Positions 19,685 to 62,785 of a stretch of DNA of 64,000 nt are shown here, one piece after another; within the stretch, counting starts at the first letter, position 1; every line of letters starts with the position of its first letter. Source of the stretch: Luidia sarsii (lineage: Eukaryota; Echinodermata; Asteroidea; Paxillosida; Luidiidae); NCBI GenBank assembly GCA_949987565.1, contig OX465110.1, forward strand, positions 15,292,290 to 15,356,289. The letters run 5' to 3'. The notes beneath the pieces are model-generated. The model saw only the letters and a list, made by a program, of their open reading frames with translations. It made no database searches and was not told where the DNA came from. A program made the translations under genes and the position numbers.

Positions 19685-22600
19685 GTAAGTCCCAGGCTGA
19701 ATAATAATTCACTCATTCAATAACACAACACTGAGGAGTGATGGTAGACTGTATGTATTGACTGCTGTACAGTTTATATCATGAGTACATGGTGTGCATT
19801 TGGTGATATTATGATCGTGCATCACGTCATTGTTCATTGATTGCATGTTGTCAACAGTGTATTTCTCCCAAACTTCTCCCTTTCAACTATTTATCTCTGC
19901 ATATCGTTTGGCTTGCGAATGGTTTGTCAAACTGAGTCAAATGTTACTTCTTGAAGTTGAACTTGAAGTTCTTCTGTTCTGACTCTGACTTTGAGTTCTG
20001 TTTTGTGTGTTAATGTGTTTCCTCCAGTCGAAGCAAATCTCTCTCAGTCTCTGACTAGGTTAGCCCTACCTCCATTGTTAGTCATGACCATTACTGCCAT
20101 GGTTCTACCTGGGACATTTCATCACCTACTCCACAGCAAGCCAATTTGAAGCTTTCATTATTTTGATTTGCCCAGAGATGTGTGATCGATGTCTTGCTTG
20201 ACTCATGAAATGAACAAATGTGTTAGATTTCAAAGCTTATATAGTATTTTTGTTAAAGTTAAGAAAATGTTTAGCATTTTCCTAGTCATTGTAATTCAGT
20301 ATCCTCATTGTGTCAACCACCACCATGGATATGATTATGAGTAAGGTTTAGGTAAAAAATGCATTGAATTAATGTCATTGTCATATTAAAAATTAATGTG
20401 ATTCATGTTTAGTCACTTAACTGTTTATTTAGCGCACCTTGCACAGTTCAGTTGCTTTTCAAGTCTTAAAAATAAGACAAAAATGTTGCAAACTGCTTAC
20501 TAATTAAAACTACAAAAATACAAATCTCACAGATTGATTTAGCAGACTCCTGGCAGGACATTTCTCGAAGGCAGAATAAGAAGGGACCTGCCAGGATTGA
20601 ATTGTCTGGCCCGCTAAAATCGTTGAGCATTTCAAAATCGTTGAAAGACTGTATTATTACTAGCCACTGTCCAGGAAATAGCAAGAAGCCAAGATGCAAC
20701 ACTGAATCATTAAGTAGGATTTAGTTGTTTTCAATGAGTAGTGTTAGACCTTCACTTGATACAGTTGCAATATAGTGGACAAATGTTCACCACGAATGTA
20801 CATGAATCTTCTTTTTCTTTCCAACATTTTGGTAGTCATACACTGAGCTGGTTTCTTGCTCCAGCAGCACAACACAAATAAACAACAACAATTACTGTGT
20901 CGATAATGAGATGATGAAATGGTTAATTGAAGGGACTGATTGACCCTATAGTATAGGTCATACAATTTGTACTGTAGCCCTGATCTTTCGGAAACACATA
21001 TTTTGTCACGAATGAGTCAATGGCTATGTTGATTTTGAAGGTTTAATTTTAAAGAAAAAGAAAAAAATCAGGTGTTAAGGGATTTATAAAAAGGCCTATA
21101 AATGTAATACATGTACCGTTGTCATTTTTCATACTTATTAAGTACACATGTATGTATACTATATTATACAGTACAAAATAATATAGATCAGGACACAATT
21201 TAATCCATGTTTCCGTCAGTGATTTTTGTTTCTTTTTTATTGTTCAAAATTTAGTGGGCCTGACGTTTTCATCCTAGCAGGACCTTTCTCAAAGGCAGAG
21301 TCAGTTAAAAGGCTATTAAAATATAGAATAGTACTAGTAGGCGGCTGGCCTATAGAATTGCAAGTCAGGCCACTGAGAATAATGAAGACAAACCGGTTTG
21401 TTATGGTCCCAGTAGAAAGCATAACAAGAAATACACACATTTTGTCTGTTCTATGAATAGGCCATTGGTTTGCGTTGCTCAGAATGGGCTCTGAACAGGT
21501 CGTGAACGGACCAACACAAGGATTGGCCTTGTAGTTTAATGTCAGTCACTTGCCTTTTACCACCAGACCAAAACCCCTGAATTTTAGACTAAAGGAGGAG
21601 GGGAGGGTGATCAGGAGAGCACAGAATTTGTTCAGGGGTGTGATGTGCATGCAGTATGGATGACTTCCATTACAGGACTTCCAGCACTGATCCCACCCTT
21701 GAAACTAAGCATTGCTAATGTAGCATGGTATTAACCACAATGTCTTCTTCCCAAGTACTGTACATGTAGGATGCGTTTGATTATCAAATTAAAGCGCGGA
21801 ATTACAGCTTGAGAATCTCTGACGGTCGTCCTGACTGATCCCTCAAATGCTACTGTACCTACATTTCTGAATTTATTGCTCTTAATATCTGTACATGTGC
21901 GTGTCTATTTATGGGTCAGTTGGATCCTCTTTTCTTATGTTTCTTACTTCATTATGCGTACATGTAGTTTATTGATTTAACAAGCTCATCATGGTCATCT
22001 TTCGCGTTGGGGTTACATACATGTACATGTTTACATCTACGTGATTTAAGATAGAAATACAATATAACCCAAACGTCGAACCCCACCTTTACAACTGTAC
22101 TGGTACACTGTACAGATGTCATGTTCATGTACATGTACATATATGTAAATGTACTGTACACTGTAGTATCTGTGCAGTACTTGTTTGTACTGTACATGTA
22201 CAGTATGCACCTAGACGGTGATGTTTGTTGTGTGAACTGTTCCATAACAATAAGCAGTACGATGTCATCCATAATTGCGCTGTGCTGTGTCCTATGTGAT
22301 CCTTTGTTTCAGCATCAACTAGGCCTACTGTACTGTATAGCACTATGGGTACTGTGTTGTGTCACAAAGCTTTCCATATTGATACATGTACATGTACTGT
22401 AATGTACGCATGTACATGTACCATGTAGGCACTACTAGGCATGTACATGTAGTATGTACATGTATGTGTGACACTGAAATGCTCAATTTTTTTTTACTAC
22501 ATTCCATTAGGTGACTCTGTCATGGATGCTGTCGTCATTTGGATTAGATTATGTTTTTCTTCCGCCACAATCCTGTGACGATGTCGGAATCATCTTCCAC

Positions 22601-25600
22601 CGGTCTCTGTGGGTTATGCTTGTCTTTGGCATAGCCAGCAGGTTACCAGTTAAGGGCTTGAATTGGGGAGGGGGTGCAGTTGGAGGTCAGACTGCTGCTA
22701 CCCTGCTGTGGTGTTAACGTAATTCCACTTGAATCTGAACTTCTGAAGCAGTGAGAGCAAGGTTAATTACCGATATTTCTTTTCTCCCCCCTTCCTTCGT
22801 GTACATGTATCTATTTTGTCCTTGTCACTCTGCCTTGGAGAAAGGTCCTGCTAGGATCGAAACGTCAGGCCCACTAAATTTTAAGACTTACATTTTGGTA
22901 ATTTTAGTCAGTACATGTAAGCAGTTTGCAACATTTTTGTATATCACCTTAAGATATTTGTGCACATGTATGATGTATGGGTACTATACATACATGAACT
23001 GTACATTTCCATTTTATTTTGTTGGTCCCACCGTCACAGACAGGTCTTTTGTCAGGAAGTTTAAAATGTAAAGTTCTTGTTACTTTCAAAATGATCACCG
23101 AGATCACGATGTAATTTGGAAGATATGCGCCTTTTTGTTTTAGTTGTGTACTAAATGTGCAGTAAACTTATGGCATGGATAGTATTGTCAGTTATAAAAC
23201 ATGTACTTCTATGCATAACTGATACCATGGGTTAATTCACACTCATTAGTCTTTTCTTATAATGTACCGTACATGTTCTATTGTGTGAATACTGAACACA
23301 GGCCTTTATGTACTGTGTACAATGTAATGTAGGCCTACATGTACATTGTACATGTACACATGTAGGCCCTACAGTACACACTGTACAACATTACATGTAC
23401 TGCACATGTACTGTACATACACGTGTGCTACACCGTACATATACAATGGTTTTACAAAACTTTTAAACAAAAATGTAGAGGGCCTGACGTTTCCATCCTT
23501 GCAGGACCTTTCTCAAAGTTCCTTCTAGGCTGCTACTACATGTACATGTACAACTGTATGCTACTGTAGGATTTAAACGTACATGTAAGTTACATTTTTG
23601 AGATACATTGTACAGTACATGTCTATGTGCATTTTGGTCATTTTCACGTACTGTACAACTCAGTACAAGTCAGTACAAGTTTTTACAAAACAACAGAATG
23701 TGTACAGTGTATGCCACAAAACCAAATAGTTCAGTGCTATCTTTAGAGCACACATGTACAGCCTGTCAAGCACAAATATTTTTGTGATGAGGTGGGGTTT
23801 ACCACAGTGTTAAACTTTCATAACAAGTTGGAATTACATGTACTGTATGGTGTACACACATGCTTACATGTACATGTACATGTACAGTACATTATGTACA
23901 TGTACAGTACAATACATGTACATTGTGTAGCTGTTACGTAGAAGACCTGGCAATTCAATCCGAGCAGGACTTTCTCAAAGGCGGATTCTGGCTTTGGGAA
24001 AAGTCCTGTAAGGATTACAACATCCTGCTAGAACTAAGAAGAGCATCAGATCCTCTATCTGTTTTTGAAGTTTGAGTCAAGAAGGTGCGCATTATACACA
24101 GGATTTTACGGTAGACATTAGACAATGTACATGTACATGTACATTTACAATTACATACAAATGTATGAACATACAAATGTACACATGTACAATGTACTAC
24201 ATGTACATGAGTACTGTAGGCCTACATGTACGTACACTAAAGGCTACAGTACAGTACATAATTTGCATGTGTACATGTACATGTACATGTACATGTACAT
24301 GTACACTGTGCATGTACATGTACATGTACATGCAGTACAGTATACATGTATATTGTACCGGTACAGTACGTACTGTACATGTACAGTCCATTTGTACCGG
24401 GTAGGGGTCAATATGCTCCGCAGTCCGTACACACATTCTGTGTTGTTACATGCACATTGTCCCCCCCAAAAACTCATTGTTCCTGATTCACTCTTGCAGT
24501 TGCATTGCATTATGGGAAGTCCCCCCCCCCCTATTCCCAGCATCATTACATTCAAGGACTACAATCAGATTAATCTTAAGCTGGGCAGCAAATGACTTCA
24601 AGCGTGCATTTTGTTGCTCCATGGCTATTGTGTTGTGTCACTTGTGTGTAGTTGTGTACACTATGTTATTTGAATTGGCTTATTTTTTTATGAGCATCTA
24701 CATACTGTACGTACACAGTGTACATGTACAATGTACAGGTACATGTAAGGTACAATTGTACATGCATGTTCACTCCATGCATGTACAGTGTATTACATGT
24801 ACATGTGTGTACACCCCCACATTGGAGTCTAGCACAAAATGTGCAGACCAGTATTCAATCACTTGCAATGTTTACATGATGTTAAGACTTACTGTAAGAC
24901 TTATTAATGAATGTACATGGTGTACAGTACAGTGTACAGTGTACGTGGTGTACAGTAGTGTACATGGTGTACAGTACAGTGTACACGTGTACATGTGTAC
25001 TGTACATGTATAAACAATAGAAATAATTAATAAAGCACATTCCTAAGAGTGTCACCACTGCCATTTTCTATTCAATGTCACATACTGTACATGTACAAAA
25101 TGAACTCATTACTGGTCATCTTGCCTCCCATTTTCCTCATTACTAAGACCCATTCACCCACATAATTTTGTGTAGCCGCTCATAATTATTATGGCCTGCT
25201 GTCCAATAATTATTGTGCTATCAGATTACAGGGGAGGGTCAGGGTGTAGTCATGTAGCCACATTTGTACATTATGTGTACATTGTATACACTGTACATAT
25301 AATTACAGTATGTACCGGTAATGCCATGGTCAAACACTGAACAAAGTACATTTGTACATAAAGTGTTACAGTATACAAAAATGTTGCAAACTGCTTACTG
25401 ACTAAAATTACCAAAATGCATCTTAAAATCTTAATCCTTCTTTTGTGTTCACTCCTTCACACTTCTCTCTTTCCCCCTCTTCTCACTAATCCCTACTTTA
25501 CTCCTTGCCCTTCCCTTTGATCTCACCCTAACAGCTTTACTCTTTGTCCTTTGTTTCTCATCCATGTCCTATTCACTCTCTTCCCCCTTCCTTCGTGTAG

Positions 25601-28600
25601 ATGCATCTGTGTTGTCCTTGTCACTCTGCCTTTGAGAAAGGTCCTATTAGGATCGAAACTTCAGGCCTCACTTAATTTTAAGATTTACTTTTGTACATGT
25701 AACAAACCCATTCAGGTTGTCTGGCTGACTGTTGTTGTTGGTGCTCTGTGAGTGTGTGGTTGGCAGGTATGGCTGAAGTTTACTGCCCTTTATGCCATGA
25801 ACAGTACACATGTACATTGTGTACCATACTTGTTTTTGTTTGGTAAAAGGACATGCACAGGATTCTTTGCAGGTCGTCAACACTTTCAGGTGATGGCTGA
25901 CTGAATGCTTGCCATGGCTCATGGCTTACCTACATGGGGGTGATGCTAATTTCCGTTTACATGTACAGTACATGTACATATTCATGAACACTGCAACTTG
26001 CAAGCAAACAAACTGTAGACCTGTATTTAATACAAATGGTGGTTTACATAATGTTTTAATGATCACACTCAGCGGTCCCAAAATTTGTCTACGTCATGTT
26101 CAACATGTACACAACTGTAGTCTGTATACTGGCATGTGCATTATATAGGCCTAGATGTAAATGCCACATTTATTGCAGTATGCAATGCATGGCCATACTG
26201 TAGGTAACTCAATTTGGACAGAAAGTGCTGTTTCATGCATGTACACGTACACTAATTACACTGTACTTGTACATGTATGTATACATGTACATGTACACAA
26301 CAGGATCTTAATTCAGTAGTTTGACCTGGCCTGCTCAGTGCCTTGATGTGATAAGCAACATGGTCATTGTGCTCCAGCATGAATATTCATTTAGTATTGA
26401 TTCCAGTGAGCAGAGTTTTGCTCTGCTGTGAATTTGTTGTGATTGTGATTTTGAAGGGTAATGACCCACAAAGTACGTGCATACATGTACATGTACAATG
26501 ATGTGGGCATTGGGCACAGTTTGAGTATTTACAGTGTACTGTAGGCAAGCCTGTTGATGATCTGCGTGTTGGATAATTGTCGTACTTTTTGTATAAAAGC
26601 GTTACGGTAATTTGATGCTGGTATACTGTACACATGTACTGTACTGTGCAGTGCATGTGTACATGTAATCCATTCTGAAAGCAATTTGTACAATATACAT
26701 GTATATAATACATTTGTACAATATATTACCGGTATACATGTACACTGTACATTTCTATATACTGTACATGTACATGTACCGTATTGCATGTACACACAAT
26801 GTACAGTACTGTCTACTGTGTACCTGTCTAGTACATGTACAGTACATGTACGGTACACTGTACCGGTACATACAGTAAACATGTACATGTATGTACAGTA
26901 CACATGTATGTACTGTACTGTACATGTACATTTGCTTGTTACATGATGTACATGTACTGTATACATGTATGTATCATAATTTTCGGAATATAACTGTATG
27001 TGTGTGTAAGCTGCGGCTATAATTATAAATACATACATGTGTACTAAGGCTGTTGTCGACAAGGCTTTTGTCGACATTGTCGCGACAAAGAAAATATTCC
27101 GACATGTCGACAAGGTTTTTCGGTTGTCGCGACAAAAACAATAAAATACATTAGCCTATCTCTAGTCATAATGGCCAATCTCTGAAAAGAAGGGAATAAA
27201 AAGGGAACAAAAAATCCTAAAATTGTGCGCTGAGCATTTCATTTTTGCTTATCCACGCCACAAAATAATAGTTACTAAATATGTTGGAAGTTGGAAGGGA
27301 TCGCGACGCGACCAAAGAAAATCGTTCACCGAACGCATTTTGCCATTACGATGTACAGTGTAAATACTGTATAGCGCACGTTTCTATGGCCGGTCGTCAG
27401 CAGTACAGTAGCTGGTATACGTTGCTGCATCGCATGCATTTAATACACGTGCGTACGGGATACCAGTGCTATGCAGAGATCGGGAAAGATCGTGGACGTC
27501 CGAGGGAAGGATCGAGAAATGAGTTCGCACGTGCGTCGCGGTCGGTTCCCAGTTGAAAGTAGCCGCATGTTTGGGCCCAAAATCCCGGCGACCGCGTATT
27601 TTATTTCGTTGAAAAACGGACCGGAAGTACATTATTTACATCGGAAAAAGGCCTCCTTTGCCGCATACGTTCTAGGTTTGTCTGAATGTATGGCTGAATA
27701 CGCGGCCTCCTCCGTTTTTGGGCCCAATACGCAGCTGGTTTTTGGGTGCCCAATACGCGGCTACCTTTAGCTAGGTTCGGACGGTGACGTCTTTTCTTTT
27801 CACTGAAACTATATGGTTCTCCAACTTCCATGTACATGTGTACATAGCCAATTGGAAAGCCACTGCAGCCGCTGTGCAGCGAATTCATAAATATTCATTA
27901 TTTCTTGCATTGAGAACGCACGCATCGCCGATCGATGACGTCATGAATAAACAATGAGCAATCGCTTTTTTATGATTTTTTTAGGAAATTACGACTGAAA
28001 CACCCAATATCGGCACAAAAATTAATTTGTTGTGTATAATGTTAAATACGAAAGCCATTTAATATGAAATTTTATTGAAATTAAGATTATCCATGAAAAC
28101 TAATTTCACAAGTTCACAACTATGGCGGTTTGACATGCCCCATTCGTTTAATACCTAAAAAAATCCTACAATGTGACTACAGATTTTTGACTAAATCGGG
28201 TCTCTGTCGCGACAATGTCGACAGTCGGCATAAAATTCTCGCGACATGTCGACAAGAATTTTTTCTCACGACAACAGCCTTAATGTGTACATTGTGTACA
28301 TTACATGTATGTTGATTTTGCCCAATAAAAAGTTTATTGTGGCTAAATAATAATAATATACACATCCAATGTACATGTACTGTAGTGTACCGACAGTTTA
28401 TCCTATGTTGATGTACGTGTACCGGTATATGAGACAGCTCTTGTCAACCAGAAAAGAGAAATATCAATTATTATTATCTGAGGCAATTCATGACCGAAAG
28501 TTACAGTAGAACAGACATTTCGACAGAACAGAGTCCCGCTTGATGGTTCTGAGGTATCGTACAATATTACGAACGGTACATGTATCTTTTCCAATACTGG

Positions 28601-31600
28601 TAGTCTGCACTAAATTTGTACTGAACATGTACATGTTTGTACATCCTTTTACATGTACGTGTACAATGTACAGTATGTCATGTATGTTTTGGTGTACATG
28701 TACACTGTACATGTACAGTAGGCCTACATGTACACTGTACATGTACACATGTATCTACATGTAGCTGAATAATGGCTACCGGTACTTGTACAGTACATGT
28801 ACATACTTACATGTATACTGAACATTGTGTGTACTTGAGTACCAAATGACTTCAAGTGTTCAGTACGATGTGCCTTGCCCCTACAAATGTATGTACGAAA
28901 ATGTTGGTATGAAGTGAATGGGGTATGAGACTTTGAAATGAAATACATGTAGAATAAATCTTGTTTAATTAAATTTCCGGCATGTGACTCAGTCGTATCA
29001 GTAGTACTAGTAGTCGCAGCAGCAGTATAATGAAGACGACATCGGTAAATAAAAGTTAGAAAGGTGCGGCTTATACAAAGGTGCAGGTTACATGTTAAGG
29101 CCTCAATCAAGTTAGTGTGGAAATTTTGGATCGCTGTGGCTTATACTCCGTGCGGCTAACCGCTTATACTAAAAAAATTACGGTACCCCATTTACACTTA
29201 CAGTACAATGTAGGTGTACGTGTACATACATGTACACGCACAGTACATGACATGTACATTGTACATGTACACACAATGTACGTGTACATGTACAAGTGCT
29301 TGTACATGTACACTGTACACGTACGTGTACATGTACAAGTGCTTGTACAATGTACATGTACATGTACAGTACCTGTGCAGGCACAGGTACATGTACATGT
29401 ACAGTACTGTGTACAGCTACAATGTACAGGTATGTGTTTCTACATAAGTACAGGGTATGGGTTCACAGCGTACCGAAATAGCCGTTTCTTGGAACCACTC
29501 CTTTGCCCATACATCACATGTAAGTCCCCTGGAAGCTTCAAAGGCACACTCCCCCGCATAGACATGATGGATTGGGAGTTGATCTGCACCAGGGACTGAA
29601 TTTCTTTTGGTCACATACACCCTGTATACATACACATGTACATGTACTGTATTGATACTGTATTTGTGTTTGTACATTTTGTGCTTGACTGCCTATACTG
29701 TACAAAATCTCTAACGATTGTAGTTGTGAAAATGTTTGACATTTAACCACTTTTTTGCAGTGACTCTCATTCAGTCAGTGTTAATGGTACAATGTACATG
29801 TAAATTCTCATCCACAGACCAGACATTTACAAATTTAACTTCTCACATGATTTCAGAAGAAAATGTGCAATGAATTATTGATATGTGTATGAACCATGTG
29901 CCTTATAAGAAGAACCCATGAGTAAAATGAGATGCATTTCATTATTTTGTTTTCTCGTGATTTCAGGCGTCGGCAAATCTCACAAAGATGCGGCCTCGGT
30001 AACGTCAGCACATCCCATCCCAGCCTCAGCTGGCATCTACTACTTTGAGGTCACCATCGTTAGCAAGGGACGCGATGGGTAAGGGAGGGCTCCCCCACAC
30101 CCCAACCCCCCCCCCCCCCAACACCCCAGCAGCCTAAGGCTTAGTACCACAGGGTTGCTGTAATACGGTACTCATCAGAGAAGTGATACACATGTACATA
30201 CAAAAATGTTGCAAACTGCTTACTGACTAAAATTACCAAAATGCAAATCTCAACATTTAATGGGCCTGACATTTCGATCCTAGCAGGACCTTTCTCAAAG
30301 GCAGAGTGACAAGGACAAAACAGATACATGTACATGAAGGAAGGGGGAAGAGAGTGAATAGGACACAGATGAGAAACAAAGGACAAAGAGTAAAGCTGGT
30401 AGGGTGAGATCAAAGGGAAGGGTAAGGAGTAGGGTAGGGATTAGTGAGAAGAGGGGGAAAGATCAAAGAGAAAAGTGTGGAGGAGTGAACACAAAAGAAG
30501 GATTATCAGAAAGCATGCATGGTGTTAGTCATTACCCTCGTGTATGTTGAGACCATGTGGTTGAATAGTCCGAAGACGCTTCATCCACATTTTCTCACGG
30601 CTAAGACGGACAGCCAGCATTACTACAGTGACCAAGGGATTCTATGCCAAGTACACTCATATCTGATATCAAATGATCAGGGAGATTGAAGTGATACCCA
30701 ACAGGGGTGTCCATTTTACCGGTTTTGATCTAATCAGAGAAACTTGAAACTCAAAGTTTCTCTGATAATATAGAAAAGACACAGATGTTCTAGCTTTTGT
30801 TCAACTTTTTTCTTTTGGGCCGGTTTCAGAAATTGTTGAAAACTTCCCAGTCAGTTGTATTTTTCTTTGTTTGTTTGAAAATAAAAGTGTTTCAAAAAGT
30901 TGCACCGTTGCATCCACATTGATCCCCGAACTGCTGTTGCATGGTTTAAGGCTAAATGCTGTTTGCATCTGAATAAAATGCAATCAATGGTTAAATGCTT
31001 CTGACTGGCACCCTAATCCCAGTCAATTTTCCTTTCCATTGTTTGTTTGAATGAAAAATAAATAAATGAATTAATTGATTAAATTAAATTTAAAAATACA
31101 AATACAATTTTAGATTCTGTTCAAATACATGTAACTTTTGAAGTAATTATTCAATCCCTTTCTGTCCAGTATTAAATATTCCATACTGCACTAGAAACCA
31201 GGAGTAGTGGGACCGAGTCCTGCCCTACACTGTACATGTAGCTGCACATATTTTTTTTGTCAGCAGGGGGAAGCTCTGAGCATGCAGTCACTAATTACAC
31301 ATGTACTATCTACACTGTACATGTATATTTAGTAAGGCAAACCATCATTCAATTACACTGTACATTCTCTTCAATGTCAAAACATCTTTATATCAGTGAT
31401 TCAATGCGGCACCTACATGTACCGCAGTACAATCTCGAATCTACATTGTACATGTACCACCCGACCTTGACCAGCTTTGACCTGATAAGTAAAAAGACAA
31501 CCGCACTAGAAAGCAGGAGTCAGAGGTTTGAGTCCAACCTGAGCTGCGTGTATTTTTTCTTTCAGCAGGCAATTGGGCCCAGGTTTGAGCATGCAGTGTA

Positions 31601-34600
31601 CGTGTACATCATCGAGTATGGCAAACCCTCATTGAATTACTCACCTGTCTCTATCCCAAAAATTTTCCCGCTGTACGCTTCAACCCCCAATCTGTTCCTG
31701 TGCATAGGCTCTCCGTAGTTTTTCCTAAAAAAGGGCTATGTAGTGTATTGTAAATGTACATGTACATGTACATGTACAGTACAGGACAGTGCCTCTGCGC
31801 TGATCATGTGTACTCAGGAAATAATGTTTCAATTTGGATTGGATTGGATTGGACCGTTGGACCATTGGACGAAAACGAAATTTAAGGCATGGTGGGAAGA
31901 ACATCAGAAGGGAAGCAAATATTGAATACCTTTTAGGCTTTGCTTCATTGGGCCTGGGGATGTTTTAATTTTGTGTTATGTTCAGTGTATACCGGTACAT
32001 GTACAGTGTACATGTACATGTACTGTATATATTCACAGACCAATGACTGTATGGCTCTCTACTTAAAGCCACATTGGTAAGATCGAAAAACAGAAATGTT
32101 CACATATTTACATGAAACTTATACAGTTTGAAGATGGTTATAGTACAAACCATTCACTGAAATATTTCTGCCTAAAATGTTGTATTTTAGGAGAAATTAG
32201 TAAAGGAAATAGTTTACATGTACATGTACACATTGTACGTCTCACCGAGATCTAATTTTTTTTTTTCGGAACAGTACGGCGTTGAATGCTGCATTTTCGC
32301 GAAACAAATGAAGCGGTTTTTCACTATTTTCTCAAGACTCGGTTGGCAGATTGAGCTGAAATTTTCACAGGTGTGCTACATGTATTTCATGCATATGTTG
32401 GATCAGACAACGTATGGATGCTATTCTTTGACCTCGACCAATGTTGTGTAGGGGCTTTAAGTAAGAAATGCCCTCCAGGCTCCATTACACCACAGGGAAT
32501 ATTCCATTTTATTTGATAGAGTCATCCATATCATTTGAACTTGATTGCAATGGAGTGCAATATGTCCTGGCCTCCTGGGAAAGGCAATATTTGCTAGTTA
32601 TAACTAGTATTACTCTATTACTGTCTGAGTTTTCCATAAAAAATCAATACCATAATCCCTTGGCATAAGTCCCTAGCCAAAAGCTTCCCCACCTGTCCCC
32701 TGTTTTTCAGAGAACTCAGGAGAACAGAAATCCCTAATCAAATTTGGCACGTTGTCCAATTTGGTGATTAGATCAGTCAGATTCGCCCATCAGAGCACGC
32801 TCTATGTACATATTCCTCTATGACTTTGCTGTTTGTCACCTTTCGTCTAATGTATGTGTGTGTACACTGTTACAGTAGTTGGGTGTCTTCATTTTGCATA
32901 TAAATTATATAGTACATGTATACCGGTACATATACCATGTACAGTACATGTACATGTATACATACATGTACATACACGTACAGTGTATGTACTGTACATG
33001 TACATGTGTACAGTGTGTACATACTACATGCACAAAGTACTGTACATTGTACATTTACATTGTACATGTACATTGTACATTACATGTACAGTGTACATGT
33101 ATGCGGTGCTTAATGCACATTGCACAGTGCTGTATTGATTGTACTGGTATGGTACACGTACTGTACATGTACATGTATGTACTGTACATGTACTGTACAG
33201 TGTACATGTACTGTACATTGTACATGTACTGATACACGTGTGTACAACACTGTATATGTTCACATTACTGTAGCTTTGTTCATGGACAGTGTACTGTACA
33301 TGACATGTACATTTGTACATGTACATGGGTACATTTGTACATGTACATGTACAATGTACATGTATGGTACATGTACATGTACATTACTGTAATTGGTTAA
33401 ATTCACTTGACTTAATGCGCAGTGCTAAACTTGCATGCACACTGACCATGAACTGCTACATTTACACTGTGCAGTACATGTACACAACTGCATGTACAGT
33501 GTACGTGGCCACCGAGTCTGCATACCTGCCCCATAAATTCTTTATGTACATGTACATGTACATGTACATTGTACATGTACGTGCACACTTGACATCTATC
33601 ATTTCTCTGCATTGCATAGGCCATGTACGTGTACATGTACCGGTACATTGTACATACTGTACAGTACATAAAGAATGTACATGTATTGGACAGTTAACCT
33701 TGACCAGCTCAGTGGCCATCCCTTTTGACATCTGTTTTGGGTAAAATAAAAGGCTATTGCTTTACATGTGTACACTGATTCACAGCATACAATAAAAGGT
33801 GCCTAAATACATGTACACATGTGTACAGTACATGTGCATGTACATGCACATGTACTGTACATCTAATTGTTGTTGCAAAAAATCTACAAATAATCTTTTG
33901 CAGTGATAATATTGATATCCTTTCCACCTGGTTCAAAACAAACATGGTTTTGGTTGTGGTATTTCAGGCATTGTTAGAACTTCCTGGTTCCTTTTCATAT
34001 TGCATGCTCCAGTCTTGGAGAGAGGGCCTGACTTTCAATCCTGGCAGGACCTTTCGCTGCCTTTGACAAAAGGTCAACTGGTCAAGGTCAGGGGGTCAGG
34101 GCAAAGTGGTTTCCAAATAAATCCAGATGGAGATAAAAATGGTGTGTCAATTGGATCCCAGAAGCACCTTTCTCCACCCTCTAGGAAGGTCCCACTAAAA
34201 TCAGGACGTCATGAAGCTTCTTGACATGATTCAGTGTGTTTTCCTGGCCATTTGGGCCAGCAAGGCTCTTCTGGTAAGAGTCTTGAAAGAACAGATCCAT
34301 TTCATTTTATCCAAATCGAATCCAAATTCAAACAAATCGAATCCATTTGAAAATTTAGTGGGCCTGACATTTCCATCCTAGCAGGACCTTTCTCAAAGGC
34401 AGAGAGAAAGGTCCTGCTACATGTGTAGGATCGAAATGTCAGGCCCACTAAATTTAAAGATTTGCATTTTGGTAATTTTAGTCAGTAAGCAGTTTGCAAC
34501 ATTTTTGTATACATATCCATTTGAAAACAAATACATGTAGCAAAGAAAGTTGCTTTGGCCGGACCAGTCCTTGAACATTTGACCTCTGGCCTTATGTACA

Positions 34601-37600: not shown

Positions 37601-40600
37601 AGTAATGTTCACATGTACACGTGTACATTGTATGAAACTTAATACATTTACTGTACATGTTTACATGTTTACATACATGTACATGTACATGTATGTCCGA
37701 CCGGTACATGTACATGTACTGTACGTACACGTACATTGTATGATTATGAACAATTCATTGCATGTACTGGTACATTTATGTGTAGCATTTTTTTTACACA
37801 GAACCATCTGCAACAGATCACTTGCTTGCCAATTGATTTTTTATTATCCCCTTGGCCTTAGCATTGAGCCTTTAAATATGGTACAGTACATGTATAATCC
37901 TCTTCTCATATTTGAACATTTGCCACAACAGGCCAGCAACACAGACACAATAAGTGGACTCTGACTATGCATGTGCTGTACAAGTGTACAGGTGTATGTG
38001 TTTACTGTTTAGGCAGTAGACAAGGATCTGTAGGTACTACACTGTATGTTGCCTGTAGGTAAACACAATTTATTAAGCATGGTGCCTCTACTGCAGTGTC
38101 CTGACTCCCATGCAAACATCCCTATGTGAAATGGTCTTGTGCCAAATATGGGGCCAGACTACATGTACATGTACATGTGTAGTACATGTACCATTGTTGA
38201 TCAGTGCTTATAACATCATACACACATGTACAGGTACAGTGTACATACTGTACATGTACAGTACATGTATACAAACATGTACATGTGTGTACAAACTACA
38301 AAGTACATACATGTACTGGTGTACATGTACCGGTAGTATAGGACCCTATACATGTAATGTACATGTAAGTCATTATCGAAGCCCATAATTATGTATCCTT
38401 TGTCTGTATTGTACAATGTACATGTACATGTACATGTACTAAGTTAACTGTACATATGTACATGTACATTGTACAATGTACATGTACATGTACAAGTACA
38501 GTACGTGTAGGGCTGTACATGTAGGCCTACATGTACATGTACACGTACTGTGATAAATGCAAAAGTTTCAGACAAAGTCATGTACATCATGTACATGTAC
38601 ATGTACAGTACATGATGTACAGGTGTACAGTACATGTACATTGTGGTTTTGACAGTTTACCAACAAATGTGCATGTCACGTGTACATGTACATGTACATG
38701 TACATGTCCCGTATTGTGTACATACCTGTACATGTACATGTACTGTACATGTACACGTGTACATGTACATGTGACCATGTACACACACACGTACCCTGTA
38801 CATGTATACATGTACATGTACACACAATGTACATACATGTACATGTATGTAATGTACAGTGTACATACATGTATGTAATGTACACATGTACATGTATGTG
38901 TACAGTACATACATGTATACATGTACGGTACATGTTTGTGCATAAATGTACACATGTACCTGTACAGTACAGCCTGTACATGCACTGTACAGTACATGTG
39001 TATACGTATACATGTACACGTACAGTACATGTAGACCTAATGGGACAGTAAAGTACACCTGTACTGTAGTGTACACGTACATGTGTACGTGTATGCATGT
39101 ACATGTACATGTACATGTACATACCGGTACATGTACAGTACATGTACGTGTACATGTACGTGTACATACATGTACATGTACATCGTGTACGTATACATCA
39201 GTACTGTACATTCATGTACAGTACGTACACAATGTACATGTATACGTATATATCTTTGTACAATACATGTACATTACATGTGCTGTGCATAGTAGGCCAT
39301 GTACATGTAAACTGTTTGTATACAACACACATAATTATTGTACAGTATGTTTACATACAGGCCCAGGGACATTGAAGAATCCCAACTCTTGCATGAATAC
39401 AGAACAGTGTAGACAGCTGCACGTTGCGCTACATGTAGTTTCTCTGCCTGTAAATTATGACCCTTCCTCTGTGTGCTATACCCTGTCTGTATTGTGAATA
39501 ATACTTTGGCAGCCCCCATTGCACTTTGCTTTCATTGAGGAAGAAGAAAACCTCAGAATTAAGTCTCACGTGACTTGACAATCCTGTCAGTGTCACCTGC
39601 TGTCGTTTCTGTGGATCTGCAGTTTTGTTTAATAAAGGCCCTATACAACATTTTTAACGATCAATAGATAGCCACAGTTTTTGTGTTAAACCACTAAACA
39701 TTCCAAAAAAGCAAAGATTTTAGCTCAAGTGGTAATCTGAGAAAGTAGAAAAATGAAGAAAAATAAACGTCACGGTTTATTGACTTCACTCACCAGCCTT
39801 TAGTGTAAGAAATAGTTTACTACTCGCGAGTAATGAACTACATGTATTTGATATGGACAGCATCCCAGAGACCCAGACTCTGTAAATACATGTAAGAGGG
39901 AAATCTGTGGACATTGATTTTGTTGATCTCCCCAATGTTGTATTGGGCCTTTAAGGCTTGCTTTCATCCACGCATTGACTGCACCACAGATATTTAGTGA
40001 TGGTGTGACAATGCGATTGGTCATGTCGTGTGATGCGTGTTTGCAGCATGGTACATGTATAAGTCAGTCACAGTCACACTCTTGAATTTCATTGCCCGAT
40101 GTCTTCATCTGATATCCCTACCCCTGGGTCCTTTTTGGGGGGCTGAAAATCACCGGAGTCACTCTCGTTTGTACCGTACATGTACCGGGTACTGTACATG
40201 TGTTCATGCAGACCAACATCAATCATCACCTTGGCTGTTTGAATAGGTTCAGATTCCCATTGCAGAGGAAATACTTTTCCACCCTCATCGAGTTCTGTTT
40301 TGTTAACACCCAAAAGATTAACAATTTAAATTGTGATAATGCACACATACAGTTGTACATGTATGTACATGTGCATGCACAGTAGTAGAAATGTGTCTTT
40401 TTCTTCAAGTCTGATTACATGGATAATTATTTACATGTATAGTCACAAATCACATGTTCAAGTATTAAATTTCATACTTACACAACACATGTACATTGGG
40501 TACATGTATGCAGGATATCATGTGCTCTGCCAAATTTTTGGGTTTATAATACACTGTACATGCAGTGAGTGATACATGTACAGTACCTTGTCGAACCCAC

Positions 40601-43600
40601 ACACATACATGTAGTGGAACATGCATTGTACACACTGTATGGTATTTGATAAACATGAACAATACATGTACATGTACATGCACAGTCCAATGTACATGTA
40701 CAGTGTACATGTATAATTTTTGTACATTAACTCCTGGAGAGAAATACATAAAGAAGTTTGTACGTGCATACAGGTACATGTGTACCACTGATAGACAATG
40801 TTAAGCCTTGAGTGAAGACCGGGGCACCAGGCTGCCTCTATACAGTGGTCTGACCTATGACTATGAGGCACTGTGTCTGGCACCTGCCTCTTGGTGCATG
40901 AAGAGCACAGGCTCTGGATGGGACAGGTTAAATTACTGCGTACATTGTATGTAAAGACATGACTAACAGGTGCCATGTTGAAACAAAGAACGGAGAGATA
41001 GTACATGTAGCAAGACTTGAACGGAGACTACTGTACGTGTACATACGTATGTATCAGTACACAATGTACGGTACATGTACATGTACATGTATACCGGTAC
41101 ATACATGTAAACGTGCATGTATTTACTGTACAATGTGCATGTACAGTTGTACATGTGTAGATGGCCTCTTGTGGTCCATCCACACAGTTACGTGTATTTG
41201 TCTGTGTACATGAAGAGCACAGACTATACATGTAGACTCTGTTGGAGACTGGTATACTGTACAACATGTACGTGTAGGTAAAGGCATGACTAACATTGAT
41301 TTCCACCAGGGTCAACTCAGCTGCCTGGCATTATTTTGGGTGGTAACACCACTGTGGTGTGGGTGATGATTCACCCAGACCATGCCCCAGCACCATGCAG
41401 CAACTGTGCAACCTCTGCCCACAAAAGGAAAGAAAAGCCAAAACAACCACTGTACTGAATCCACCTGAGTACGACTGCGAGTGATACCGGTACAAAGGAC
41501 AAAGGGCTTCACTGTTTGTCTAGCCATCGCCCCCCCCTTCCTGTTTTGTTGTTGTTGTTGTTTTTCTTTTTTTCTAAGTACGGTAGTCTCAGTTTCTTTA
41601 CTCACTGAGTTGGTACAGTACATGTGTGTACATGTACATGTTGATTGTTGTTGACAATACTCATTCATAAAATGCAGTGTATGTACAGTGTACATGTACA
41701 CTCATGGAGGATTCCTCCATGGTACACTGTACTGTACATGATGTACATGTACATCTGTACTGCACATACACTGTACACCCTGTACATGTACACAGTACAT
41801 GTACATGCAGTGTACATGTACACATGTACATTGACACTTGACAGTACAGTACATGTATGTTAAGATTTTAAAATGACCTCTGTTCTCTGATAACCTTTAT
41901 ATGACAAAAGCCGCGTTTCCACTGGACTTATTTTGGTCAAAGTAACCGAGATGATGGTTACTTTTCCCATTTTAAGTCCAGTGGAAACGGCCAAGTTAAA
42001 TTTCCTCTCGGTTACTCTAACCTAGCCGAATGGTTACTTTTACCGGCCAACCTCTGCCCTGTAAAAGTGACCAGGTAAGTTTAACCGAGCCGATTAGTCC
42101 AGTGGAAATGCACCACTCAGTAAAATGCGACTCGGTAAAAAAAACACATCCGGCCTACTGTATGACGAAAACACGTACATGCACTGTGCACAACATCTGC
42201 TTCGTGTCGCGGGCTAAATGTACACACGTACATGTACATGTACAGTACATGTACATGTTGTGTAATTCGTTGTGTTATAGTTTACGTTGTGTAATTACGT
42301 TGTGCAATTCTAAAAAGATACATGTACGGTACAGTGTACAACCATGGATTTCCTTCCTCCATGGTACAACTGTACATGTACATGTGTACATGTACAGTAC
42401 CTATACCTGTACATGTTGTATGTTGTATAAAGTAAGACGGGTAAAAACATGGATGTACTTTGTAGTCATTGTTTGTCAGTGAACCTCCAGGTGACTTCAA
42501 CTTTCCTCCCAGCCAGAAGGTCACTCAACTACATGTACAGTATGTAATAGGAGTTGAATGAAATTCTGAAATGTCAGGAATGCCTCATTAGTAAATGCAT
42601 GTATTCATTTGTATTGTGACTATAGTCAGTGTGGTTTGACAATACAAACTATGCACTATAATGCAGTATGGCTGTATGCACAGTATACTACAGTATGTAC
42701 GTGTACATGTACGTACAATGTACATGTGTGGGTACATCTACACACATGTACACGTATGTATACATGTACTGGTATACAGTACGGTACATGTACATGTACA
42801 TGTACTGTACAATGTACTGTACAATGTAACATGTACTGTACTGTGTACATTTTACATGTACTGTACACTGTACACGTCGACAGGTACTGTACAGTGTACA
42901 GTACATGTACATGTACATGTACCTGAAAGTTTGATGTGGGAGGTGGGACTGTTCGATAGCTGGTACATATGTACATGTAGTGTCTGCATATCAAAGGATT
43001 CAGGAAATATCAGTGAAAAAGAAGACAAATCTGGTCACCAAAAGTCAGTACAGTACCGGTACATTTATGCAAACTACATGTACACTGTAGGGCAAACATG
43101 TTGCAAACTGCTTATTGACTAAAATGACCAAAGTGCAATTAAAATATATAAAATTAGGACGGCTTGACGTTTCAATCCTTCCACTTCCAGGACCTTACTC
43201 AAAGGTCAATGTACCAAGTGTACATGTACATTGTGTACAATAGTCAAGAACAGTAGTACATGTGTGTACATGTGTACCAGTAGGCCTACACAATGTACAT
43301 GTACAGTACAATGTACATGTACATGTAGTTAATCATGAATGTATTGTACATGTAGTGTACAATGTGTTTATGCATGGAGGAATATGTATCATTGTGCATA
43401 CTACAGTAGAGTACAGTATGTGTATAGGGACATGTTGAAATGATTCCATGAACAAAGAATGTGCTTACCAGGGAGTTTAAGGGTGATTCATTCTGTTTTT
43501 CTTTTGGCTTAAAAATAGAATGGTTCGACCTGTTGTGTCTGCTCACCCCACCCGCTTGCACAAAATGACCTTGGCATTTTCACAATGGATTATGTTTCTT

Positions 43601-46600
43601 GTTTTGTAATGTACAGTTTGTGTACATATTTAAAGTACAGTACATGTACATGTATGTTAAATTGTGGGAGCTATAGGGTTTAATCACGTACCATACAGTG
43701 TACGGTACGTGTATACATGTTCAACTGTTCATGTACACTGTAGGTACCTCGTGTTCACTAACAAGTAACAGGTGATTCAATAACAAGTGCACAGTGGGTT
43801 AACCTGCTCTTACATGTATCTACCGGTAATCATAATTTCAGCATTGTCTACATAAAGTATGCACATACATGTACACCTGTATACATGGGCGCGAATCTAG
43901 TGCCTTGTGGAGACCTACATGTACCGGTACATTGTACATGTACAGTGTGTACACCATACATGTGTACATGTACAGTACTGTACCGGCACATGTACACGTG
44001 TGTTTGTACTACATGTACATGTACATGTATATTTTAGACTTTAGCCTAACTCCCTTGACAACAAAGCCAGTCATAATATTTTGTAGGATTGTCTTTTTAT
44101 TGCCACTTACATGTATACGTACAGTGTACATGTACATGCGTAGGGAAGGATTCTTTCATTGCTGCATGAAAGCACTTTCATGTTCAGGTACATGTACAAA
44201 CAGTACATGAACTCAACTGTACACATGTACATGTACTGTATGTACGGTGTACAAATGTACAAATAAGTGCGGTTAAATTAATACTGACATACATGTACTG
44301 TACATCATACACACGTGTACATGTACATTGTTTCATATACATCTACATGTACATGTACATTGTGCATACTGTACTGTTGTAAACACTGAAATGTGTCTGC
44401 ATTGTACAGTACACAATGTACATTCAAGCCTACTGTCTGTACAGTACATCTGCACGTCCATTGTACAGTACTGTACATGTACCGGTATACACTTAAATTA
44501 CACTGTACAAGTAATATAATGTGCTCTGTGGATTGTATGCATATACAGTGTACATGTACATGTACACATGTATGTACCTACATGTAGTAGTAGTACAGTA
44601 TACAAATTTACGTGTACATGTACTGAGCTTTAATTAAGATTTGTGCGTTGTGTTCTCAGTTTAATTCTCAGCACCAGAAGCCAGAAGTCCTCCATAATTC
44701 GTGCTCAGTAGAATCTCAAGGATAACCCATTAACCGCATACATACCGGTACATTGTATTTGTGACCCCTGCTCTCATCAACATAAGTAATCTTTGTTTTG
44801 GTTTAGTTTAAAGGTTGGCATTGAAGGGGAAGATGAATATTTTGGCAAATTGTGCGCTTTGACTTAATAATGAGTTGTATTTATGCAGTGCTCAGCACCT
44901 GATTGCAATTTTATGCCGTAGGATAAAGGTTGGGATATAGCGACTTACATGTACATACTGTATACACTACTATACAGTACAGTTTGCATTATATGCACAC
45001 CTCATTAAACTGTTGGCTCTTGTAGTTGTACATGTACAATGTGTGTACATGATGTGATGTTGTTACATGTTGCTTGTACCGGTACATGTACACTGTACAA
45101 CTGATGTACAGTACATGTACATGTACATGTGTATTACATGTATACGTTTGATTTACAGAACATACGTGTACATGTAATATTCAAATGGCTTGGGTGTCAT
45201 ACTGTACATGTACATGTAGGCCTATGGCTTGGTTGAAACGTACATGCTGGCAGGATTCTGTTGCTTACATGTACATGTACATGTATTTGTATCTACTGTA
45301 CCTCCTTGACTAGTATAACCAGCTAGAGCTTTTAGTAAACATGTACATGTACATGTACATGTACATGTACATGTAGAAAAGCTCCCCCTCCCCCATTTGC
45401 AACATTCCACATGTGTACAGTACATGTACATGTACATACATGTACTTTGTAGGATGAATCTTTGACGATGGCAATTTTGATTGTATCCCCTACATAGCGC
45501 TGTTGATGACGTACATCTGCCTACATGTACAGTAGGTGTGTGTGCACATGCATACATGTACTGTACTACACGTACATGTAGTAATACAGGCAGGAGTGGA
45601 TGGAGGGTGGGGGGATGGAAGGAGGGAGATGGGCCGAGTTCATCGACCCCTGACATTTGATTTGCCAGCCAGCGGCCTGGCGCCATTGCTGCTGGTGCTG
45701 AGGGTCCTGCGCTTGCTTGCTGCAGCTTCAGAGTTGCCGCTGCAGTCCGGAGCGATAGGAGGTGTTATAGAGGGAGATAAACCGTCAGTTGAGCAGCGAG
45801 AAGGATGCAGCGCCTGTTATTACACTGCACTGTTGATCTGATACAAGGCCGGTGCTTTATCCCTTCATGACTGTGCTGAGGGAAAAAGGGTGCATTTTTG
45901 GCGGTCACAGGCTCACAGCCAAGTATTGGTTAAGGTCGTTTCTATTTGGCTCAGCACTTCATCATCCAGTGTCACTCTAACCTCACTGAAATTGCCTCCC
46001 GGGGAAAATCACAGTGGAGTGGATTCCTTGTTGAGGCAATACTTGGTTGTGACTTGTGACCTGCACAATGCACCCCCAGTCACTGGTCATCACGTTGAAT
46101 TGTTTTGGCTTGCTGTTGTTTTCTCCCAATGACGACACATGTGTCGATGAAGAGCTGCAGATTCGTGGTTACTTGTTAGTATTTCTCCCAAATTCGGGCC
46201 TTGAGGTTTTGGGTTCCCAGCAGGACCTTTCCCAAAGGCTGCTAGAAAGGTGCTTGGGTCCTGGGCTCCTGACTGAGGCTCTGTCTTTGAGCAAGGTCCT
46301 ACATGTACAAGGACTGAAACGTTGGCTGCACTAGATTTTTGAGATTCATGTAAATTGAAGTTTCAATCATTTGAGTCACTGAGTCGTGTGTACGTGTAGT
46401 TTGCACAATTACTGTTTTACTGAAATTTTGTGTATAGTATTTTCTATTTGTTTATTTCCACTCGCACTATTGTAGAGTGCAAAAGCATGAACTGGTCTGT
46501 GAACTTTTGTTCTTGTCTGTGCACTACTGTCCATGTACATGTACAGTACATGTACATGATTGTTTACTTTTTACATGTTAGTCTCAGGCTGCCTTTGGGT

Positions 46601-49600
46601 TCAGCCAAGGACCTCTGCTATGGTGGACTGACAGATGAGGGAAAATAATGATACATGTACATGAACATGTACACATGTACATATGTACATGTACATGTAC
46701 AGTGCCATTGTGTGTACATGTACATTGTACATTGTGTACATGTACATGTGTACATGTATGTGTTCATGTGTATACGGTTTATGCGTAACTCAATAACTGA
46801 GACTTTGCATGTAAACAATGGGCTTCATTTATCACAATTAACAGGTATTCGTGTAAATGTGGCATATATTTTAAAAACCAATTGGCGTCTGTGTCCACTA
46901 AATTTAGACTCTACATACGCTACATGTGTACGTATCATACGTACATCCTTCCGTCACTAGATGGAAATGTTGTGTTTCTAGTTCTACAGTGCACATCAAT
47001 CATCTTGAGGCTGGTAAAAGGCCCAATGGAATATCAGCGGGATCTTAGTTTGAGTCCGTGCCTTTTTTGGCAACACAAATGGATGGAAAACTCACGGATT
47101 CTGTGAGCATGAGTTGCAATTGAGTGTGCCTGCAGTGCGCATTGGGAGAGTTGTGGAGTTTGACTCGTGCGAAGTGATGGACAAATCGGTCCGCAGTATT
47201 TGGCAGTCTGCAATGTCTCCAAGAGTGAGGCTCCATTTGTGACCCGTCACAGCATAATGAGGAATAACCCCCACTTTTGGGATTTTGAGATTTTCTAATG
47301 ATGTGAAAGAGTATACCATTAGCTTTCAAATGATATCAAAATTATTTCCGTATGAACTTTGTTGTAAATAGTACAAGGGGACTTCGCTCATTCATTTGGT
47401 ACCAGACACAATATAGCAGCACCATTCTAACTCCTCGAAAGCGGCCATTCAAAAAGGCAGGAATGGGAACAGTACACAAACACTCCCCCGAAATCCTCGT
47501 TTCTTCAACATTCAGAGACGGATTTCGAAAAAAATCCTTTAGACATAATATCCTCCAATACATTAACTTTCCGAAAGTAAAAAAAATTAAAAAAAAATTG
47601 ATTTTTTATCGAATTGAGAAGATACTTTGACTTCAGGCGTTGTTTACTCGAAAAGTGTTTTGGTGGGATATTCCTCATGTCAATGTGCCGGGTCACATTT
47701 TGTGTTACATGTACCGGTAGTGTCGTGTGCATCTTGATGGGGACTCGGGAAGGCAGGGTTAGGTTTGGGAGAGAAGTCTTCTCCACATTACCCATGAACC
47801 GCCTCAGTGTTTAGTTTACAGTGTACTCTGATCTCCCCTTCACATAATGAGCGCTGTTGTTCCAGGAGTGCAAGGCCGGATGAGGAGAGACTGTGGCTGG
47901 GAAGTGGTGATTAGGGAGGACAGTCCCTCCTCTCCCGGTACTTCCCTATGCCTCGCCTGCTCATCGGACACATTTTGAGTGCCTGAAGTTTCAATCCTTC
48001 TGTACATTTGCAGGACCTCTCTGAAAGGCATAATGGTCATTTTAGTTAGTGTAAAACTTATTGCAACACTTGTGTCAACATCTGTCAGTGTCAAGGTGCT
48101 TAAACAAAGAAACCCACAGGAAAATAAACTATCTACTATACTACTATAAACTATGTACATGTACTATACATTACATACATGTACTTGTACATTGTACAAG
48201 CTAACAAGAATTTAATGGTAATTTTTTCTTTAGTTCTACTGCATACAATGTACCGGTATATAAGGGCACTGCAATTCGTTGCCGTGAAAATCCTCCAAAT
48301 TTAAGGGCACTGCAGCAATTACTGTACATACCGGGAGGTGGTGCTATACATTGTTTCGTCGTTATTTTATTTAGGGGAGTTGCTTCTTGCCTTCCTCGCG
48401 AATGCTTCGTGAAAGCTTTTCGCGAAACGCGCAAATTAAGGGGGTCGACCAAAATGTCTAAATCGCGCATGCTTCGCGAAAATATTTTTGTGAAAGGACT
48501 TTCGTGTGGAGTCTACTTAATTTTGACTGGTACGGTATATTACACATTACGATGTGCACAAGGTGTCACATTGAAGATGAATATCTTCAAGCCATGCTCT
48601 GCAATTTGACTCTCCACCCCCTCCCTCTTCTATTTTATTTCATATAGTACTTTTCACCAACTGAAAAACAATTCTGAGAATTCTCATTTTGATTGGGGCC
48701 GGGGAGGTGGGGGGGGGGAATTTAGTCAGTCTTGCATATTGTTCTTGCCGTTGTCCCTAAAATCAAATCCATCCACTTCACCCTTGCAGTCGAAGGGATG
48801 CATTTTGAAAATAGCATTTTGAAAGTTAGTTGCATTTTTCAAAGTCATTTTCGCCTTTCTTTTAGTGGGTACATAATACATTGGTCAATGAGGTTATTAA
48901 TGCAAAGCTGGAGGTTTGCATTGTGGAAGTGCAGAGTGGAAAGCTTTCGCTGACACCATGTGCATGTACATGTAACTGTAAGTCATCCTCTTTTGAGATG
49001 GACTGTGGCTCTGAACATATGCAGAACAGAGCCGGTAACTCAGCGTTTCGAGTAGTGTGTACTCTGCCCGTCCTTACAAGACTGCTGTATTGCAACTACG
49101 GTAACATGAAGGGATCAGGAGGTGTGTTAAAAAAAAGAAAAAAAAATTGCCACCGTGACCACAGACGTCATGACCTCAGGCACCCCTGGGAGGGGGGGGG
49201 GGGAAGTGCAGCCAACCTATGCAAGGCTTCAGCTGCTGTCATCAGATGACCGTCTGACATAGTGACAGTGACTGTGAAAGATACATCTATAGATAGACAA
49301 CCATTCTGGAAGGCATTCCATTCAAAATCTTAAATCAAAACCTCCACCCCCTCCGAAGAAAAAAAATCACGTTTGTCACTAGATAGTGAATAAAAAACTA
49401 AACTCTGTATTTTTTTATATTTTTTTTTATCTGCAGATACATGGGCATTGGTATATCTACAGAGGACTTTTTTGGCAATGTGAACAGACTACCAGGTAAA
49501 TGTTTGTTTTTGTTTTGTTTTGTCTTGTCTTTCTTTGTTTCCCATTATTTGGCCGCATCTATTTATTTTGGTCGGGTGGGATATCGTCCCTGTGGAGATA

Positions 49601-61886: not shown

Positions 61887-62785
61887 ATGGCCATGAGTGT
61901 AAGTATGAGTACTTGGCCATGAGTACAAGTATGAGTGCTTGGCTATGAGTACAAGTATGAGTACTTGGCTATGAGTACAAGTATGAGTACTTGGCCATGA
62001 GTACAAGTATGAGTACTTGGCCATGAGTACAAGTATGAGTACTTATCCATGAGCATAAGTATGAATACTTGGCTATGAGTACAAGTATAATTACTTGGCC
62101 ATGAGTACAAGTATGAGTGCTTGGCCATTAGTACAAGTATGAGTACTTGGCCATGAGTACAAGTATGAGTACTTGGCCATGAGTATAAGTATGAGTACTT
62201 GGCCATGAGTACAAGTATGAGTACTTGTCCATGAGCATAAGTATGAGTACTTGGCCATGAGTACAAGTATGAGTACTTGGCCATTAGTACAAGTATGAGT
62301 ACTTGGCCATGAGTACAAGTATGAGTGCTTGGCCATTAGTACAAGTATGAGTACTTGGCCATGAGTACAAGTATGAGTACTTGGCCATGAGTATAAGTAT
62401 GAGTACTTGGCCATGAGTACAAGTATGAGTACTTGTCCATGAGTACAAGTATGAGTACTTGTCCATGAGCATAAGTATGAGTACTTGGCCATGAGTACAA
62501 GTATGAGTACTTGTCCATGAGTACAAGTATGAGTACTTGTCCATGAGCATAAGTGTGAGTACTTGGCCATGAGTACAAGTATGAGTACTTGGCCATGCAT
62601 GAGTACAAGTATGAGTACGTGGCTATGAGTACAAGTATGAGTACGTGGCCATGAGTACAAGTATGAGTACTTGTCCATGAGCATACCGGTAAGTGTGAGT
62701 ACTTGGCCATGAGTACAAGTATGAGTACTTGTCCATGAGCATACCGGTAAGTGTGAGTACTTGGCCATGAGTACAAGTATGAGCA
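61887..62785. repeat. 26-bp minisatellite, about 34 copies
   Basis: The unit is close to GAGTACTTGG + CCATGAGTACAAGTAT, itself made of two related halves (GAGTACAAGTAT and GAGTACTTGGCCAT). Variants GTCCATGAGCATAAG and ACCGGTAAG recur in blocks, showing a higher-order pattern. Long Tyr/Leu/Ser/Thr frames on the minus strand are artefacts of the unit. Confidence 0.95.

Follow-up and report, generated by a model that had tools for sequence, protein, structure and literature searches.

A TACATG-rich region of the Luidia sarsii genome, probably formed by layered transposon excision scars

The TA-x-TA-dense region

The 64,000-nucleotide stretch of the starfish Luidia sarsii analysed here (the window, C12:15292290-15356289 within a 470.9-Mb genome) contains, at 21900..46790, a region dense in words of the form TA-x-TA, in which x is CATG, CAG, CTG, CANTG, CCGG or GGCC. 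On the basis of a word census and of Markov and simulation comparisons, this region is probably a palimpsest of layered transposon excision scars with a proposed self-reinforcing target loop. The original prediction of layered TA-transposon excision scars is thereby supported, namely by TA-bounded insertions in repeat copies, by chains of mixed words and by a Tc1-type family with CA..TG ends. That the words originate as scars is well supported, and the mixed chains support their layered growth; feedback by the resident family is suggested by its matching ends and target, and the low clumping of the words counts against it. We infer both the excision of such elements as the maker of the scars and the feedback loop. 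The usual explanation of simple repeats is replication slippage; if scar layering is true, a large class of microsatellite-like DNA would instead record transposon traffic word by word, in its ends, stagger and order. Among the titles and abstract openings searched, in literature readable without subscription, no paper on scar-built simple repeats was found.

In the proposed mechanism, TA-inserting cut-and-paste elements (Tc1-type transposons and their relatives) would duplicate the TA and, on excision, leave 2 or 3 terminal bases per end, which repair would convert into TA-x-TA. Ends of the form CA..TG would give CATG and, with one extra end base, CACTG, CAGTG or CACGTG; CAG..CTG ends with a 3-base stagger would give CAG or CTG; and CC..GG and GG..CC ends would give CCGG and GGCC. 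Every scar would add one TA, and a preference for ATG-TA-CAT would draw more hits to scarred DNA until mixed chains become microsatellite-like blocks. The excision scar of Tc1 in C. elegans is TACATGTA, the same 4-base palindrome between two TAs, derived from 2-base CA/TG end remnants; however, single events per locus are the rule there, whereas layered chains and kilobase blocks extend across a 471-Mb genome here. Tc1/mariner elements are described as leaving 3' overhangs of 2-3 bases and a footprint that includes the TA duplication (PMC3878927; PMC2170065). The footprints TACAGTA and TACTGTA given for Sleeping Beauty (PMC4378557) carry the identical CAG and CTG words between TAs; elements with CAG..CTG ends are candidate makers of the CAG/CTG scars here.

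TACATG occurs at 16.6/kb in the region. Outside it, the window has 0.97/kb, and a 160-kb sample of the genome, made up of sixteen 10-kb stretches at fixed coordinates, has 0.72/kb. The borders of the region are real, the TACATG-rich zone starting near 22 kb and stopping near 47 kb. Intact words of the listed types number 593 and cover 16.9% of the bases, against 0.8% elsewhere in the window. The enrichment is real, but the earlier statement that the region is built from such words is overstated. Between successive TAs, CATG is found 330 times (237 expected from an order-4 Markov model of the region), CAG 75 (43), CTG 72 (48), CAGTG 26 (11), CACTG 22 (9), CATTG 21 (4), CCGG 21 (7), CAATG 17 (5) and GGCC 9 (0.4). 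Words beyond those originally listed reach similar counts (CGTG 19, CACATG 18, CATGTG 18, CACG 13). Words of 0-2 bases are also frequent (none 135, CA 58), yet without excess over expectation. The pattern spans the whole genome, with TACATGTACATGTACATGTA present 18,245 times.

Scars at TAs of interspersed repeats

Scars are seen as insertions at single TAs of interspersed repeats whose other copies retain the empty form. A self-alignment, with the overlapping loci L005, L006 and L008 and same-sequence pairs within 3 kb set aside, gives the change from TA to TACATGTA at L007:1249 and at window positions 22911, 32377 and 51244, together with changes to TAGGCCTA, TACCGTA and TACATGTGTA and one TACCGGTA whose empty copy reads GA. 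The first of the window scars (22912..22919, + strand, 10 subject alignments) lies at the GTCAG-TA-AGCAG site of an interspersed repeat, where other copies have TA only. Isolated TACATGTA scars with TA as the empty form are likewise located in a repeat copy at 32377..32384 (+ strand, 5 subject alignments) and, outside the dense region, at 51244..51251 (+ strand, one subject alignment). On the minus strand, along which the repeat runs, the self-alignment places the scar TACATGTGTA (34418..34427) at the TA within GATCC-TA-GCAGGACC, a site of the repeat.

Genome-wide, the latter site (site 1) has 41,140 empty copies and 132 copies with TACATGTA. At GTCAG-TA-AGCAG (site 2) of the same repeat, TACCGGTA occurs 11 times, TAGGCCTA 4 times and TACATGTA not at all among 100 listed of 243 strings, most of the others listed being 1-2-base or unrelated gains; the window's own copy carries TACATGTA at this site. 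At a TC control point, no TC-CATG-TC is present among 100 listed of 2209 strings, which are mostly an 18-bp tandem duplication, with 10 of the second scar class described below and the rest mixed. The tally of insertions in repeat copies that had been proposed as a check, run here in part, thus agrees with the scar reading: TA changes to TA-x-TA, with CATG at one TA and CCGG or GGCC at another.

Palindromic words away from the region

The same words are enriched in 195.5 kb outside the region, where CATG occurs between TAs 72 times (22.6 expected under a maximum-order Markov model), CCGG 14 times (2.4 expected) and GGCC 9 times (1.9 expected). Pooling all palindromes gives a 2.64-fold enrichment for TA, compared with 0.83- to 2.07-fold for the 15 remaining dinucleotides; non-palindromic words reach 1.36-fold at TA. 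After filtering on array words within 40 bp, 26 CATG, 10 CCGG and 8 GGCC words are isolated, and their flanks seem unrelated by eye. Several further candidates were dropped from the scar words. Eight of nine isolated AGCT cases fall in one 29-bp tandem array of locus L015; CTAG (12 vs 2.3) and GTAC (9 vs 2.0) themselves contain TA and no longer appear once words are counted between successive TAs; and the surplus of TGAG/CAAG corresponds to the repeat unit of a tandem array of the window (61888-62783).

Word spectrum and replication slippage

One-base losses from CATG are concentrated at its centre, with 147 central cases (CAG 75, CTG 72) compared with 17 outer ones (ATG 8, CAT 9), and one-base gains follow the same course, with 86 CANTG words (17-26 per N) compared with 6 for all other single-base gains. 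Such a spectrum bears on the ordinary alternative, in which (TACATG)n microsatellites expand by slippage or unequal exchange and then decay through point mutations and small indels, with the element merely favouring such places for landing. Mutated (TACATG)n arrays should spread indels over all positions of CATG; in slippage-plus-mutation simulations the ratio of central to outer events is about 1:1 or biased in reverse, so that the observed spectrum is not reproduced. A TA-rewriting simulation, by contrast, gives 156:13 losses and 106:3 gains, central to outer, which amounts to consistency rather than proof, since the observed words served as its input. The alternative can draw on a detectable 6-bp periodicity, on some perfect runs (for example 45339-45375, 6.2 copies), on chains consisting of CATG only (10/33 at site 1) and on the fact that the element does prefer such contexts. 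Besides the central bias, it has to contend with the appearance of TACATGTA in repeat copies whose site previously lacked such a word, with mixed words (CAG, CTG, CAGTG, CCGG) between exact anchors, and with adjacent CATG pairs that are no more frequent in the region (77) than in shuffles (74.3 ± 4.6), the last being a weak test against heavily mutated arrays. Slippage and decay are therefore unlikely as the whole explanation.

The long stretch at 38410..39281 illustrates the mixture of words: TRF reports it as a 6-bp array with only 64% matches, and the 1-kb bin with the highest cover of scar words starts at 38001. No CATG run in the window exceeds five words: 148 are single, 40 double, 13 triple, 1 fourfold and 2 fivefold. 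As it discriminates poorly against decayed arrays, the CATG clustering test counts as weak support, not as proof, against slippage.

Mixed chains at a single TA

At site 1, 43 copies have a further insertion to the right of the first TACATGTA, and 33 of these are chains of scar words, as classed by eye and recounted for the chains by script; among the remaining 10 strings, 6 are tandem duplications and 4 lack a second word of scar type. Besides CATG, 23 of the 33 chains include another word (in one, only GCAGAG), and 10 chains contain CAG, CTG, CAGTG, CCGG or CCGGG. Between exact anchors, the arrangements include CATG-CTG-CATG, CATG-CAG, CATG-CAGTG and CATG-CATG-CCGG.

Copies with a first CATG scar amount to 0.4% of all copies ((132+33)/41,305), and 20% of these carry chains (33/165). 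The flanks of scarred copies are themselves rich in TACATGTA, with 6.9 per kb in ±500 bp around ten singly scarred copies and 3.2 per kb around ten doubly scarred ones (including locus L032, which was measured although it also has a single scar 30 bp away), compared with 2.0 per kb around 18 empty sites, some of them inside the dense window, and 0.36 per kb in the 160-kb sample. Regional clustering thus explains part of the chain excess. Chains do grow at a single TA, but at these frequencies the original idea that each scar supplies two TAs for one is too weak by itself, and regional clustering together with target preference is a likelier reason for the excess.

Slippage may contribute to the pure CATG runs. 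In a two-route origin, excision scars would seed and diversify the blocks and slippage would extend the CATG runs; the CATG-only chains (10/33) leave room for such an extension, whereas isolated scars and mixed chains require insertion. Since CATG runs in the window are short and unclustered, slippage need not contribute, and a joint origin is a serious possibility that falls somewhat short of even chances.

The Tc1-type element family

A search for Tc1 DDE domains gave 12 matches and led to an element at L047:769-2572, which is 1804 bp long and has an open frame of 360 amino acids and 27-bp perfect inverted repeats starting CACTGCC, the first mismatch appearing only after 27 bp. The frame contains PF01498 (Tc3-type helix-turn-helix, 9e-22) and PF13358 (DDE_3, 3.6e-14), both above the curated cut-off; with 46 residues between the presumed second D and the E, it departs from the DD34E arrangement of Tc1. 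A similar extra stretch between D and E is visible by eye in the relatives P0121, P0122 and P0124, the relatives being 68-83% identical. The element is situated inside an array, with the left flank ...GTACAGTACGTGTACATGTA and the right flank TACATGTACATGTACCGGTA.... Transposons nested in microsatellites are known, and L047 resembles them as an element in a simple-repeat-like array; the difference is the evidence here that scars can make the array.

The genome contains 76 exact TA-preceded CACTGCC ends, of which 28 head-to-head pairs are formed, 14 of them 1334-1344 bp long. Seven long copies are 97.0-98.7% identical and have thus transposed recently; over the last 285 bp they are 73% similar to L047. 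The ends of L047 predict the words CATG, CACTG, CAGTG and CACGTG, which the region contains 330, 22, 26 and 5 times, respectively. Its CA..TG ends predict the CATG scars found at repeat TAs, and the family is a plausible source of them. The search for Tc1/mariner elements with ends matching the words accordingly yielded the CA..TG family, mostly sitting in arrays, but no CC..GG source. For the other DDE_3 frames (L045/L046, L048/L050, L049 and L051), inverted repeats were not found when TA-flanked pairs were sought in all seven loci and pairs with any flank in L045.

Elements with CAG..CTG ends and a 3-base stagger, as known from Sleeping Beauty, would account for the CAG and CTG words, and 1440 TA-preceded ends of the CAG..CTG type occur genome-wide compared with 13 in a reversed control; CAGCTG, the word expected from CAG..CTG ends, is absent from the region census. 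CCGG and GGCC fit CC..GG and GG..CC ends of candidate source elements.

Two small elements in similar surroundings were also noted: a 42-bp element (L055, C7:4732972-4733217) that consists of little more than its two inverted repeats and lies within a TACATG block, and a 341-bp TA-flanked inverted-repeat element with GTCCCA..TGGGAC ends in a TACATG-like context (L009:2466-2806).

Target preference and feedback

The Tc1-type family with CACTG..CAGTG ends prefers ATG-TA-CAT. Among 26 of the 28 paired copies (C5:22867028 and C6:24016736 being set aside), ATG is on the left in 20, CAT on the right in 21, both in 15 and at least one in all 26. Background TAs have a half-site in 3.3% and both halves in 0.45%; for TAs of the dense region, the figure for both halves is 8.0%. 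In five copies outside arrays, ATG is present in 4/5 and CAT in 3/5.

Alternatively, ATG and CAT might be the outer inverted repeats of the element, in which case there would be neither preference nor feedback, with CATG still the scar word. Indeed, ATGTACACTG and CAGTGTACAT are mutually inverted and present in most copies. However, L067/L068 has an adjacent tandem unit (98% identity over 101 bp) in which ATGTACAT stands without the element, and this single TA in an uninserted unit also indicates, from one copy, duplication of the TA on insertion. In addition, the bases adjoining TA fit less strictly (G 49, T 45 and A 45 of 52 ends) than element bases 17-27, which are mostly mismatch-free among 22 ends examined, and in 10 ends outside arrays the agreement ends sharply after three bases next to TA. 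Together, these features identify ATG/CAT as target rather than element ends, and the alternative is very improbable.

ATG-TA-CAT is itself the product of two adjacent CATG scars, and one scar gives half of it, so that scarred DNA would attract further hits. CATG scars with a neighbour other than TACATG/TACTG show an ATG half-site in 18/126 half-contexts, against 3.2%. On balance, the evidence tilts modestly towards a Tc1-type family that builds its own landing sites, its preference for ATG-TA-CAT and its departure with TACATGTA forming a positive feedback in which CAG, CC and GG families join. Ordinary TAs would thereby turn into expanding target-rich blocks, kilobases at a time and throughout a genome, without slippage. 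If true, the damage done by a mobile element would increase its own target supply, a niche-construction loop open to modelling and assay. A palindromic AT repeat, ATATATAT, is preferred by Sleeping Beauty and ZB (PMC7913693), and AT-rich sequence by Bari (PMC7913693, PMC4877112). Like the present family, these elements favour particular sequence surrounding TA, and for Sleeping Beauty and ZB the favoured sequence is a palindrome; the palindrome here, ATG-TA-CAT, differs in being the element's own expected scar, a coincidence unreported in the accessible parts of PMC7913693 and PMC4877112.

Evidence against layered scars

Several observations weigh against layered scars with feedback. Concerning the repeats, scars are a minority of the short insertions at the repeat TAs examined: among 100 listed of 1349 strings at site 1, 13 are TACATGTA and 21 are duplications (10 TAGCAC, 11 TAGCAG). 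Six-bp gains with 2-5 bp homology are as numerous elsewhere (7) as at TA (7). The latter comprise 4 CATG, 1 CCGG (with GA in its empty copy), 1 CTGG and 1 trivial case, and two of the seven non-TA gains (one family site, two copies) also allow an alignment in which the word is palindromic. The CATG-only chains mentioned above belong here as well, and the analysis covers one assembly, in which no excision event was observed.

Concerning feedback, landing-biased rewriting simulations, with a fivefold or twentyfold preference for TG/CA neighbours, are clumped (141 vs 126 ± 4.6 and 158 vs 140 ± 5.5 adjacent pairs), whereas an unbiased one is not (58 vs 55.6 ± 3.5). The low clumping in the region speaks against strong feedback in its simple form. 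Because the search pattern required TA on both sides of the element, its presence beside all 26 copies is not independent evidence.

Concerning the sources, the window contains no exact copy of the CACTGCC end, and the 76 family ends are set against about 168,000 TACATGTA words (0.356/kb × 471 Mb, extrapolated). A search for resident CC.. elements at the CCGG-prone site 2 found no more matches than its reversed control (11 each), GG ends not having been searched genome-wide; full CAG elements at site 1 gave 49 against 9, many being partial repeat copies and none recurrent. Neither CAATG nor CATTG follows from the ends considered here: an additional base, or ends of the form CAA or CAT, would be required. 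The excess of scars over the resident elements of the one family counted, and the lack of a resident element at the CCGG-prone TA, would suit an origin without transposons, for instance one in which end-joining at TA breaks adds untemplated or palindromic bases. A TA break, however, carries no information for CATG, CCGG or GGCC, two TAs of one repeat carry different words, and the ends and target of the resident Tc1-type family match CATG; such an origin is accordingly most improbable.

Other features of the window and genome

A second scar class occurs genome-wide at GATCCTAGCAGGACC, CCTTTCTCAAAGGCA and TTAGTCAGTAAGCAG sites, with a 5-8 bp target duplication and an altered or lost junction base (for example TAGCA-C-TAGCA, CTCAAA-C-TCAAAGG and GTCAGTA-C-TCAGTAAGC), and its resemblance to hAT-type 8-bp duplications is suggestive. 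The 18-bp tandem arrays of AAAGGCAGGACCTTTCTC derive from the interspersed repeat and are found genome-wide, as at C1:916775-917601. Two long tandem arrays are present in the window, at 61888-62783 (26-bp unit, 33.8 copies) and 4058-4982 (16-bp unit, 57.5 copies). An exon of a RANBP9/10-like gene, encoding CTLH, is located at 55058-55933, and its relatives are animal.

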